A DNA stretch of 64,000 nt. Source: Myxococcus guangdongensis (lineage in GTDB: Bacteria; Myxococcota; Myxococcia; Myxococcales; Myxococcaceae). Made by a program: the position numbers and the translations under genes. Below the pieces are notes generated by a model that was not told the origin of the DNA, did not search any database, and saw nothing but the letters and a program-made list of their open reading frames with translations. Of the stretch, positions 58,283 to 62,077 are shown piece after piece (within the stretch, counting starts at the first letter, position 1; the number at the start of each line of letters is the position of its first letter). Location of the stretch: contig NZ_JAJVKW010000003.1 in assembly GCF_024198255.1 (NCBI RefSeq), positions 248,001-312,000 on the forward strand, written 5' to 3'.

Positions 58283-59702
58283 GCGCCTCCATCAATGCGT
58301 CCAGGTCCGCGTCGGTGGTGAGCGGGTTGATGAGGGTGACGCGCAGGAACACGCCCTGGGGCAGCTTGGTCTGCACCAGGTAGAAGTCTCCGCGGGTCAC
58401 CAGCCGCTCGCGCAGGCGGACCTGCAGCGCGTCCCATGCGTCGGGCGGGACGTGCTCGGGGGTGTGGCGGAAGCAGAGGATGTTGCAGTCGGGTGGGACG
58501 GGGACGTGGAAGTCGCCGGCCTGGGACAGCCGCTCGGCGAAGCGGCGGGTGAGGGCGTAGGACTCCGTCACCGCGTCGGCGAACAGGCGGGTGCCCAGCA
58601 CGCTCAGGCAGGCGTACAGCTTGAGCGCCATCATCTCCTTGGTGCACTCCATCGTCCGCAGGGCCACGTCGCTCCACGGGCGCTCGGTGTCGCCGAAGAG
58701 GTAGCTGGCCTCCTGGGCGAAGGACTCGAAGGAGCGCGCGCCGTCGCGGAAGAGCACCGCCGTCACCAGCGCGGGCATGAGCAGGCCCTTGTGCGCGTCC
58801 CAGACGACGGAGTCCGCGCGGGCGATTCCGCGCACCTGGTGCCGATGGGCGGCGCTGAGCGCGGCGGAGGCGCCGTGCGCCGCGTCCACGTGGAACCAGA
58901 GGCCGTGCTGCTGGCAGAAGTCCGCCACGGGCTCCAGCGGGTCGAACGCGCCGGTGGCGGTGGAGCCCGCGCTGGCGACCACGGCGATGACCTTGCGTCC
59001 CGCGCGGGTGGCGGACTCCAGCGCGGGGCCGAGAGCGTCCGGGCGCAGGCGGAAGCGCTCGTCCACGGCGACGGGGATGGCGCCGCCCTGGCCCCAGCCC
59101 ATGACGCGGATGGCACGCGACAGGCTGTAGTGGGCGGAGGCGGGCACGAGCACCGCGAGCGGGGGCCCGGCGTGGGCGCCCTCGTTCCATGCGTCGTAGC
59201 CGGCCTTCGCCTGACGGGCGGCGAGCAGGGCGGTGAGGTTGCCCAGGGAGCCGCCCGAGGTGAGCACGCCGTCCGAGGTCTCCGGCAGGCCCAGGCGCGC
59301 GGCCATCCAGCGCAGGACGTTGCGCTCCATGGCGGTGGAGACGGGGCCCATCTCGTACACGGCCATGCCGTTGTTGAGCAGCGAGGAGACGGCGTCGCAC
59401 AGCGCGGCCAGCGGCACGGGGGCCGTCACCTGGTGGCCCACGTAGCGCGGGTGGTGCAGGTGGTTGGAGCCGGAGAGCACGCGCGCCACCAGCTCCGCGA
59501 AGTCGCCCGTGGGCTCCTCGGGGAAGGCGGCGGGGAAGCGGTCCACGCTCACCGCGGGCGCGGCCCATGGCAACACGGGCAGGTCCTGGCCGTGCGTGGC
59601 CTGGCCCAGGTAGTCCGCCAGCGTATCGACCAGCCGCTGGCCCTCGCGGCGGAAGGACTCGACGTCATAGGCGGCGGCGATGCGCTCACGAAAGTCCGTC
59701 AT
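58260..59702 (-). CDS. PLP-dependent group II (aromatic amino acid-type) decarboxylase
   Basis: A 480-residue enzyme from ATG 59702. The PLP-binding segment has H-V-D-A-A-H-G-A and the Schiff-base Lys in W-D-A-H-K-G-L-L-M; H-L-H-H-P-R-Y-V-G-H and T-S-G-G-S-L-G-N-L-T further mark the group II decarboxylase family (glutamate, tyrosine, L-2,4-diaminobutyrate or aromatic amino acid decarboxylases). Substrate cannot be told. Its 3' end overlaps the hybrid kinase gene end by 23 bases. The upstream region contains repeats (59833-59957). Confidence 0.92.
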   Translation of the reverse strand: MTDFRERIAAAYDVESFRREGQRLVDTLADYLGQATHGQDLPVLPWAAPAVSVDRFPAAFPEEPTGDFAELVARVLSGSNHLHHPRYVGHQVTAPVPLAALCDAVSSLLNNGMAVYEMGPVSTAMERNVLRWMAARLGLPETSDGVLTSGGSLGNLTALLAARQAKAGYDAWNEGAHAGPPLAVLVPASAHYSLSRAIRVMGWGQGGAIPVAVDERFRLRPDALGPALESATRAGRKVIAVVASAGSTATGAFDPLEPVADFCQQHGLWFHVDAAHGASAALSAAHRHQVRGIARADSVVWDAHKGLLMPALVTAVLFRDGARSFESFAQEASYLFGDTERPWSDVALRTMECTKEMMALKLYACLSVLGTRLFADAVTESYALTRRFAERLSQAGDFHVPVPPDCNILCFRHTPEHVPPDAWDALQVRLRERLVTRGDFYLVQTKLPQGVFLRVTLINPLTTDADLDALMEALRTAARR

Positions 59703-60114
59703 GGCGGAGGACAACCTAGCGCCTGGACCGGCGCGCGTCCTGTTCCCGGCGCGGTGGCGAAACCCTCGCCTCGACGCCCTCGCCTCGGCGCGCGCTCTCC
59801 GCGGAGCCCTCTCCAGGGCTTGCTCTCTCCAGGGCGCGAGGCAGGCACCTTCGCCACGCCCCCCTTTCCATGGCGTGCTCTCGCCCCGGGTGCTCTTCAT
59901 GGCGCGAGAGGCAGGTGCCTTCGCCATGGCGCGAGGCAGGCACCTTCGCCACGCCCCTCTCGCCACGGCGCGAGGCGCGTGTCCTCGCTACGGGCCCCTC
60001 GTCGCGGCGCGCCCTCCGCTGGCCCGGGGAGCAACCTGGCTGGCTCGCGGGCCGCGAACGCACTATCTCTCAGGGACGCGGGCCCGAAGCCTCGCCCGCG
60101 CGAGGAGACACACC
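59703..60114. other. Intergenic region with degenerate repeats
   Basis: 412 bases between the decarboxylase start and the SelW-like gene. It is unusually rich in CTCGCC/GGCGCGAG words and holds two identical 30-base direct repeats plus degenerate copies (59833-60000). The promoters of both divergent flanking genes must lie here. No protein gene is apparent in any frame. Confidence 0.55.
59833..59957. repeat. Direct repeats with hairpin character
   Basis: Two identical 30-base copies, 59833-59862 and 59928-59957, starting GGCGCGAGGCAGGC and ending CCACGCCCC. A variant (GGCGCGAGAGGCAGGTGCC) sits at 59901-59926, and a more degenerate one follows at about 59968. Each unit is weakly palindromic (GGCG-GAGG ... 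CCTTCGCC), so it may form a hairpin like REP elements. No transposase is nearby. Confidence 0.6.
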
Positions 60115-60351
60115 ATGGCCGACAAGAAGGTCACGATTACGTACTGCAACTCCTGAGGCTACAAGCCCAGGGCCGCCCGTGCGGCGGTCGCGTTGAAGGA
60201 CGAGTTGGATGTGGAGGCGGAGCTGAAGCCCGGGCCGTCGGGGAGCTACGAGGTCGCCGTCGACGGCAAGGTGGTCATCCGGAAGGCGTCGCTCGCCTTC
60301 CCCACGGACCAGGAGGTGGTGGACGCGGTGGCGCGCGTCCTCGACGCCTGA
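60115..60351 (+). CDS. SelW-like (SelT/SelW/SelH, Rdx family) selenoprotein
   Basis: A 78-residue gene interrupted by an in-frame TGA (60154-60156) at codon 14 that I read as selenocysteine: M-A-D-K-K-V-T-I-T-Y-C11-N-S-U14-G-Y-K-P-R. The C-x-x-U redox motif followed by G-Y-K is the SelW/Rdx signature. After the TGA the frame stays open to a normal TGA at 60349, and the C-terminal half (SGSYEVAVDGKVV, D-Q-E-V-V-D-A-V) matches Rdx proteins in length and pattern. GAGGAG precedes ATG 60115. Such proteins are thioredoxin-fold oxidoreductases. A hairpin downstream of the UGA fits a bacterial SECIS. A sequencing change from TGC cannot be excluded by reading alone. Confidence 0.88.
60171..60189 (+). 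promoter_or_regulatory. Candidate bacterial SECIS hairpin
   Basis: GGCCGCC (60171-60177) pairs with GGCGGTC (60183-60189) with one wobble, around a CGTGC loop that contains GU. The loop starts 21 bases after the UGA, within the 16-37 base range used for bacterial SECIS models. It would recruit SelB and Sec-tRNA to decode the UGA. Confidence 0.6.
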
Positions 60352-60358
60352 GCCGTAA

Positions 60359-60390
60359 GGGGCCGCCTCCGGAAGAGCGGTGGCGGCCCC
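60359..60390. terminator. Bidirectional terminator-like hairpin
   Basis: GGGGCCGCC (60359-60367) and GGCGGCCCC (60382-60390) form a perfect nine-pair stem. It lies between the SelW-like gene (plus) and the DUF1501-like gene (minus), so it can act on both. Confidence 0.6.
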
Positions 60391-60406
60391 GCATCCTGCG
60401 GGCCCT

Positions 60407-62077
60407 TCAGCGCTTGATGAACGTCATGGGCGGGCGGTCGTTCTTGCCCTTGCCCGCGGCCTTGAGCGCCGCCGGGTCCAGCCCGGACAGGTGGAGCGCC
60501 GTCGCGTAGACGTGGCCCGCGTCGGACACGAAGCTCGTGGGGTTCTTCGTCCGCCCCGGCACCAGCAGGCCCGTGTCCGCGTCGTACGCGGGGTCCAGCG
60601 TGCCGTTGGGCATCATCGGGATGCCGTCCAGTGACGAGCTGCCCACGCGGCCGTACTGCGTGTTGCCGCGCACGGTCCCACCCAGGAAGGCCACGCTGTT
60701 GACGCGCCAGTGCTGGCAGCAGTCCTGGAGCATGATCTCCTCGTACTTCTGCGCGTCCGTCACGCCCGCCTTGGTGAGGATGCCCTCCACGTCGCCCTGA
60801 ATCGTGCGGCCCATCTCCGAGGCGAGGACGATGGTGGTGAAGTCGTAGTAGCTCTTGCCCGTGGTGCCGTAGGGCGTGGCCTTGAGCTTCGCCACCAGCG
60901 TCTTCAGCGGGTTCCAGAGGTTCTTGCGCATCATGTCGCGCTGCTCCGTCTGGCCCTTGTTGCTCATGATGGAGCGGCGGTCGCGGTGCGTGTCGAACTG
61001 GCGCAGGCCGCGGTTCTCGATGAAGAAGCCGATGGAGAGCCCCTTCGTCATCATCTCGTACGTCATCAACGCCTGCACGTTGGTGTTGGGCGTCTCCTTC
61101 GTGCGCGCGGGATTGCCGTTGATGGACGACGAGTCGGTGGCCTCGTCCGCCGCGGTGATTCCGAACTCGGCGCGCAGCGTGGTGTTGGTGAACAGTGTGC
61201 GCGGGTCCAGGTTGATGCTGCCGCCGGCCGTCAGCGCGCGATGGATTTGCAGCGCGGAGTTGAAGGCGCGCACCGACTCGCTGTTCTTCTCCGCCAGGAA
61301 GCTCGACTGCAGGTTGTCGGTGAACTGGCGGATGCGCGCGTCGCGCTGACCCTGCGCCACGTTGCCCAGCGACGCCAGCCGCTCGCGCATCGCCGCGGGC
61401 GTCTTGCCGTAGAGCGTGTGCGCGTGCACCGGGCCCAGCTTCTCGTAGTAGCCCGTGCCCTCGGGATAGGACGGGATGGACAGCTCACCGTCGGACAGCC
61501 ACCGGTGCCACGAGACGTGGGGCAACAGGAAGCCCGTCCCGTACGCCTCGCAGAACGCCTGCATCACCGTGCGCTCGTCCGCGCCCCGCTTGCCGGACAG
61601 CGACGCGCTGTACTTGCCGTAGTGGTACTCCCACCGTCCACCCGAGTGGAAGGTGTTGCCGTTGTGGCTGGACACCACCGCCAGCTCCGGGAACAGGTCC
61701 AGGCCGTCCTGCGCCAGGTAGCCGTACTGGATGTTGCCCTGCGTCCTGGGCGGGTCCGACGGCGTGGCGCCGTAGCCCTTGGGGCGGTAGCGGTGGTTCG
61801 TCCACGACGGCGTGGGCCGCAGCTCGCCCGCGGGGATGACGCGGATGGAGTCGTTGGGCGTGTGGACGGGGTTGAACATCGAATACCCGTCCCAGCCTCC
61901 CTCCTGGAACCAGTAGATGAGGAAGCGGGGGTTGTCGGCCTCGGCGGCGGCGGCCTCGGCGAAGCCCAGCTCCTTCTTCGTCCCGGGCACTCCGAAGGCG
62001 CGGAAGAAGCGGAGCCAGTCCAGGGTGCTGATGGCGGCGCCCGCGGCGGCGCCCGCGAGGAATCGGCGGCGGTTCAT
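60407..62077 (-). CDS. Tat-exported DUF1501-like protein
   Basis: A 556-residue protein with a twin-arginine signal (N-R-R-R-F-L-A-G-A-A-A-G). Its DUF1501-like fold is of the alkaline phosphatase/sulfatase-related type: V-V-S-S-H-N-G-N-T-F-H-S-G-G near residue 135, T-I-V-L-A-S-E-M-G-R-T-I near 410 and G-H-V-Y-A-T-A-L-H-L-S-G-L-D near the end. The catalytic Ser/Thr is not clear. It follows the partial CxxCH protein (62099 onward) by 21 bases; such pairs occur widely in Planctomycetes and myxobacteria. Function unknown. Confidence 0.82.
   Translation of the reverse strand: MNRRRFLAGAAAGAAISTLDWLRFFRAFGVPGTKKELGFAEAAAAEADNPRFLIYWFQEGGWDGYSMFNPVHTPNDSIRVIPAGELRPTPSWTNHRYRPKGYGATPSDPPRTQGNIQYGYLAQDGLDLFPELAVVSSHNGNTFHSGGRWEYHYGKYSASLSGKRGADERTVMQAFCEAYGTGFLLPHVSWHRWLSDGELSIPSYPEGTGYYEKLGPVHAHTLYGKTPAAMRERLASLGNVAQGQRDARIRQFTDNLQSSFLAEKNSESVRAFNSALQIHRALTAGGSINLDPRTLFTNTTLRAEFGITAADEATDSSSINGNPARTKETPNTNVQALMTYEMMTKGLSIGFFIENRGLRQFDTHRDRRSIMSNKGQTEQRDMMRKNLWNPLKTLVAKLKATPYGTTGKSYYDFTTIVLASEMGRTIQGDVEGILTKAGVTDAQKYEEIMLQDCCQHWRVNSVAFLGGTVRGNTQYGRVGSSSLDGIPMMPNGTLDPAYDADTGLLVPGRTKNPTSFVSDAGHVYATALHLSGLDPAALKAAGKGKNDRPPMTFIKR

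Follow-up and report, generated by a model that had tools for sequence, protein, structure and literature searches.

A short reading frame in the genome of Myxococcus guangdongensis is interrupted by a TGA triplet and continues in the same frame to a second TGA, which raises the question of whether the first triplet terminates translation, marks a broken gene or is decoded as selenocysteine (Sec). The window that we analysed, the whole stretch of 64,000 nucleotides from contig NZ_JAJVKW010000003.1 (positions 248,001 to 312,000), was compared with the rest of the source genome and with relatives of the same order and phylum. We conclude that the frame is almost certainly a SelW-like selenoprotein gene of the Rdx family, in which the in-frame UGA is read as a predicted Sec. 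The features at the locus, in window positions, are:

60102-60107, plus strand: GAGGAG, Shine-Dalgarno-like, 7 nt 5' of the ATG, read directly from the letters
60115-60351, plus strand: predicted SelW-like (Rdx family) selenoprotein gene, 78 residues, Sec at residue 14
60145-60156, plus strand: redox motif C-N-S-U (TGC AAC TCC TGA), with Cys11 and predicted Sec14
60154-60156, plus strand: UGA codon taken as Sec; TGA in relatives at the same codon
58263-59966, minus strand: pyridoxal-dependent decarboxylase gene, upstream and divergent
60410-62077, minus strand: DUF1501-like gene, downstream and convergent (26.6 bits, just below the Pfam cut-off of 27)

The frame at 60115-60351 (plus strand) comprises 237 bases and has the form MADKKVTITYCNS-UGA-GYKPR...VLDA-UGA; it starts with ATG at 60115, meets its first in-frame TGA at 60154-60156 and its terminal TGA at 60349-60351, and its read-through product has 78 residues. 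The sequence-only reading of this DNA had named the same start, inner TGA, frame to 60349 and product length, as well as a ribosome-binding site before the ATG, and direct reading agreed on each, the latter being the Shine-Dalgarno-like GAGGAG at 60102-60107. That reading had also counted the uninterrupted frame as evidence for Sec, a point that we had to drop. The window has a G+C content of 70%, and at least 64 open codons follow 202 out of 674 TGA triplets examined on the plus strand and 192 out of 667 on the minus strand; because 29-30% of the TGAs thus have an equally long open run, an open frame by itself does not count as evidence. The gene rises above chance through homology that spans the UGA, together with the conserved position of this codon. 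The expectation that standard tools would call just a 13-residue fragment held in part: the frame is indeed broken at the UGA, but the ORFs listed with translation table 11 differ from such a fragment. An ORF of 158 aa (59680-60156) ends at the UGA, a 52-aa ORF begins in the SelW-like frame at TTG 60193, and a 685-aa ORF in another frame (58452-60509) spans the site. The locus is a clear case of a gene broken by ordinary stop-codon rules, and routine gene finders can miss such genes; SelW genes are known to escape annotation (PMC4607533).

No operon partner of the SelW-like gene was identified in the window, both neighbours lying on the opposite strand. Relatives of the decarboxylase were found in the flank of 54 and relatives of the DUF1501-like gene in the flank of 21 out of 102 loci searched, counts that are rough because many loci come with about 1.5 kb of flank and 16 of them partly repeat species of the order set. 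Four degenerate direct repeats (…GGCGCGAGGCAGGCACCTTCGCCA…) occupy intergenic DNA upstream of the SelW-like gene at 59736-60009, with 62-85% identity to the reference copy.

The SelW-like identity proposed from the letters was borne out by family models, by solved structures and by the predicted fold. The read-through protein matched Pfam Rdx PF10262 over residues 5-73 (E 2.8e-13, 50.3 bits against a cut-off of 22.6) and TIGR02174 CXXU_selWTH (46.1 bits against 34.2). It reached 66.5 bits with NF041051 SelTWH_Campy, under the curated cut-off of 88, and was therefore not assigned to this narrower equivalog. Among solved structures, sequence matches included human MIEN1 (C17orf37; 2ljk, E 2.7e-7), SAV_2001 (3dex, E 1.1e-5) and mouse SelW (2npb, E 2.7e-3). 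In an alignment of 51 of the 88 proteins from the order, near-duplicates having been dropped, Cys11 and position 14 were invariant as C when UGA was read as C. From the same 51-member alignment AlphaFold2 predicted a beta-alpha-beta-beta-beta-alpha arrangement (mean pLDDT 82.7, pTM 0.67), with a strand at residues 6-11 and a helix at 17-31, so that the CxxU motif follows the first strand. Foldseek returned 22 matches at E <= 0.001, all of them chains of 3dex, 2fa8, 2obk, 2ojl, 2oka, 2p0g and 2ljk. The best were the bacterial Rdx structures 3dex (SAV_2001), 2fa8 (Atu0228) and 2obk, with TM-scores of 0.79-0.85 by query length at 26-37% identity; MIEN1 matched in fold at E 1.9e-4 and mouse SelW at E 1.1e-3. 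Out of these structures 3dex, 2fa8, 2obk, 2oka and 2ljk match by sequence too, and 2fa8 and 2p0g are titled SelW-related; most were thus recognised as Rdx/SelW relatives by title or sequence, and 2ojl was taken as one from its Foldseek rank alone. Both 3dex and MIEN1 differ from our protein in carrying Cys in the alignment column of Sec14. The model hence points to the thioredoxin-like fold of the Rdx family.

Whether the UGA is a recent lesion or a kept codon was judged from the relatives. Protein searches found 88 copies in 87 of the 145 genomes of the order, and the codon aligned to residue 14 is TGA in 86 and TGC in 2 of all 88. A profile search raised this to 99 copies in 98 of the 195 genomes of the phylum, and all 11 copies from outside the order have CxxU with TGA, so that the position is UGA in 97 and Cys in 2 of the 99 copies. 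In 98 of the 195 genomes there was no UGA copy, 97 of them giving no match whatever and one a Cys copy; with a profile that derives largely from UGA copies and a limit of 29 scored candidates per genome, these counts may miss distant Cys forms. Since nearly every copy found has UGA and 97 of the 98 genomes lacking it are without any match, the Sec form of SelW seems all but fixed in the phylum. A further 16 loci from Myxococcus, Pyxidicoccus, Corallococcus and Myxococcaceae records, one of them titled Comamonas, were left uncounted because they overlap with species of the order set.

The alternative that the TGA is a nonsense mutation, in a Cys-type Rdx gene that is decaying into a pseudogene, has some grounds, TGA being one base away from the Cys codons TGC and TGT and Cys forms being present in 2 of the 88 copies of the order. 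However, the same codon is UGA in 97 out of 99 copies spread over 98 genomes and, among those aligned, down to 36% protein identity, and the protein sequence 3' of it is conserved. A conserved stop with no similarity beyond it was the pattern that the sequence-only reading had set against its own proposal; the alignment with Cys and Sec relatives showed similarity that persists past the UGA. On these two observations we ruled the pseudogene out, and its probability is close to nil.

One of the two Cys copies (C-V-T-C-N-Y) belongs to a tandem pair (L096, G087:C44), in which it lies shortly downstream of a UGA copy on the same strand. The other (L118, G038:C109) comes from a genome that is 98% complete; selA had no match there, no selB exceeded the cut-off, and the best tRNA-Sec match (E 1.6e-7) lay outside the matches listed over the cut-off; the TAA reported within the L118 match is the end of that frame of 73 codons. 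As a separate observation, the record 'Comamonas sp. KCTC 72670' contains a SelW-like gene of 87% identity together with relatives of neighbouring genes in the window, a decarboxylase (83.6%) and a glycosyltransferase (90.0%), which suggests a myxobacterial genome that was mislabelled or contaminated.

A UGA codon is of use for Sec in a genome that can decode it, and the absence of the sel genes had been named beforehand as a reason to abandon the proposal. The source genome (11.2 Mb, 53 contigs, 99.96% complete) was found to have the complete machinery, each part over its family cut-off: one tRNA-Sec with anticodon tca (UCA; RF01852, 62.1 bits against 47), selA (552.9 bits against 267.9, in an open frame of 465 aa), selB (314.4 bits with neighbouring matches in frame, against 242.25, its N- and C-terminal matches falling in one open frame of 685 aa) and selD (384.7 bits against 125; 352 aa without an inner stop). 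The presence of all four parts also speaks against a nonsense mutation and, with the conserved UGA and the downstream similarity, supports the preference for Sec that was first drawn from the letters. In the order, selA was over the cut-off in 128 of 145 genomes, and the UGA form was found in 84 of the 128 selA-positive and 2 of the 17 selA-negative genomes (Fisher p 2.7e-5, a value that ignores relatedness). The two selA-negative genomes with the UGA form are 80% (G050) and 87% (G124) complete; tRNA-Sec and selB are over their cut-offs in the former, and selB is not over its cut-off in the latter. The UGA form and selA are not strictly linked, because 44 selA-positive genomes gave no UGA form, which is to be expected if formate dehydrogenase and other proteins also use Sec. 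Such a second user is probably present in the source genome itself:

contig C7, 225784-226536, minus strand, source genome: formate-dehydrogenase-like frame with an in-frame UGA

The UGA of this frame stands in the context …VQVENQARI-U-HSSTVPGLGITLGRGG… (NQARI-U-HSS), which we take to be the Sec site of formate dehydrogenases, and a 7-bp stem with loop GGUCU follows, the loop starting 18 nt after the UGA. Its pieces score under the TIGR01591 cut-off (best piece 169.6 against 666.25 bits), and we regard it as a probable second selenoprotein gene. A look for other selenoproteins in the source genome gave 19 AhpC-TSA matches, none with an inner stop.

Decoding of UGA as Sec in bacteria further involves a hairpin in the message, for which one candidate was seen just downstream of the codon:

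60171-60189, plus strand: putative bacterial SECIS, 7-bp stem 60171-60177 / 60183-60189, loop CGUGC at 60178-60182

Here GGCCGCC (60171-60177) pairs with GGCGGUC (60183-60189), the loop beginning 21 nt after the UGA, and the stem belongs to the minimum-energy fold of the window sequence. The published bacterial model has a loop of 3-9 nt, a stem of 4-16 bp, a G in the first two loop positions and a loop mostly 16-37 nt after the UGA (PMC13188914), and the candidate fits it. Two tests covered all 86 UGA copies of the order without selection. All 7 pairs can form in 70 and at least 6 in 80 of the 86 copies, and under a null of synonymous codons with family usage all 7 pairs were reached by a mean of 6.1 copies (sd 2.5, maximum 15 in 500 draws). 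In 62 of the 86 copies the 54 nt that follow the UGA have a minimum-energy fold with 6 or all 7 of the pairs, against a null mean of 5.6 and a maximum of 11 in 40 draws; in the other 24 copies none of the 7 pairs is part of that fold. The 16 incomplete stems comprise 10 with a single A-C mismatch, 3 without the two outer pairs and 3 with other letters.

Further measures were taken on 46 of the 86 sequences, a selection that favours the proposed stem, near-duplicates and the divergent L116, L117, L119 and L120 with other stem sequences having been left out. In these 46, standard pairs fill 97.1% of cells compared with at most 72.1% after shifting the partner, the covariation score was reached by none of 500 shuffles, and two pairs change on both sides (G-C to A-U and C-G to U-A). 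Out of five measures, two (both-sided changes and further pair types) were not above the shuffles, 412 of 500 being as high. RNAalifold recovered 6 of the 7 proposed pairs from the 46 sequences; from all 74 unique sequences of the 86, divergent ones included, it gave a weak 4-bp consensus elsewhere (columns 28-31/35-38). Divergent copies often keep a stem in other letters, such as GGCGGCG-AGUCU-CGCCGCC (L116) and GGCUUCC-CGUGU-GGAAGCU (L131), and an unbroken stem of 6-8 bp stands at the site in 8 of the 11 copies from outside the order, L122, L124 and L126 being without one. An Rfam search of 59900-60500 at a permissive threshold gave no SECIS family; its one match, to a different family, was at chance level (E 4.9). 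For the window sequence by itself the probability of all 7 pairs under synonymous codons with family usage is 0.084, which is unremarkable, and the SECIS assignment therefore rests on the set of relatives, which are not independent. As to the Cys copies, the SECIS-like stem is absent from that of the tandem pair. In L118 all 7 pairs form; a fossil SECIS is not claimed there, as synonymous codons give 7 pairs in 9% of draws and a score as high in 59%.

The same evidence bears on the possibility that near-cognate decoding places a residue other than Sec, such as Trp or Cys, at the codon. The identity of residue 14 as Sec is deduced from sequence, which leaves this reading some room. Nevertheless, Sec forms are known in the family to which the CxxU position belongs, the UGA form is associated with selA (84/128 against 2/17), the SECIS-like hairpin is conserved and the replacement in the two variants is Cys, not Trp; we thus hold a residue other than Sec to be extremely unlikely. 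It could also be proposed that the UGA is a regulated stop, that is a selenium-dependent switch between a 13-residue product under selenium shortage and the full protein under ample supply. In favour are the early place of the UGA, at codon 14, and the competition between Sec insertion and termination in genes of this kind. Against this, the sequence holds no sign of a short-peptide function, and the predicted fold has its first strand at residues 6-11. In many distant copies the closest start precedes the UGA by 9-12 codons, not 13, so the short piece would be one without a fixed length. Such a switch is very improbable, if slightly less so than the misreading.

Decoding of the UGA as Sec would accordingly be expected to proceed by the bacterial route, and we infer insertion in vivo through SelA, SelB, SelD, tRNA-Sec and the hairpin because the set of parts is complete. 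SelD would make selenophosphate, SelA would turn Ser-tRNA-Sec into Sec-tRNA-Sec, and SelB would bind the latter together with the hairpin just 3' of the UGA and deliver Sec at codon 14. In eukaryotes, unlike the bacterial hairpin, the SECIS lies in the 3' UTR. The product would be a thioredoxin-like protein of 78 residues, in which Cys11 and Sec14 make up the C-x-x-U redox pair, located between strand 1 and helix 1. Its most likely role is that of a small CxxU thiol/selenol oxidoreductase, with oxidised thiols or peroxides as the species that it reduces or senses.

The closest described parallel is SelW of Campylobacter jejuni (CxxU, PF10262), with which the gene shares a length of about 80 residues and, as predicted here, a UGA decoded by tRNA-Sec (PMC4607533, PMC11955535). 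For C. jejuni SelW, Ribo-seq and proteomic support extends past the Sec site (PMC11955535), and selenoprotein genes of epsilonproteobacteria have been found to carry a SECIS 3' of the UGA (PMC4607533, PMC11955535). Unlike it, our gene belongs to a myxobacterial branch, and its NF041051 score is below the cut-off. A method of 2005 dealt with UGA-containing SelW proteins of G. sulfurreducens and C. jejuni (PMC1242214), SelW-like selenoproteins of Desulfotalea psychrophila and others were listed in 2006, and the list given there for Anaeromyxobacter dehalogenans has 11 selenoproteins, none SelW-like (PMC1794560). A 2026 review places SELENOW-like PF10262 CxxU proteins among those 'predicted with high confidence' (PMC13188914). 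Among titles and abstract beginnings in the open literature, no paper on the topic came up for SelW, selenoprotein or selenocysteine in Myxococcus, Myxococcota or Myxococcus xanthus. SelW-like bacterial selenoproteins were thus already known by 2005, and the gene adds a securely identified myxobacterial member to a known family.

It is conceivable, if rather doubtful, that the phylum has lost the Cys way of doing the job of SelW, that this job needs a selenol, and that SelW and formate dehydrogenase are together the reason why these bacteria, with their large genomes, retain the Sec machinery. In other respects the SelW-like gene confirms existing knowledge; its value lies in the phylum-wide conservation, which offers good material for testing SECIS models and for asking whether the chemistry of SelW needs selenium.
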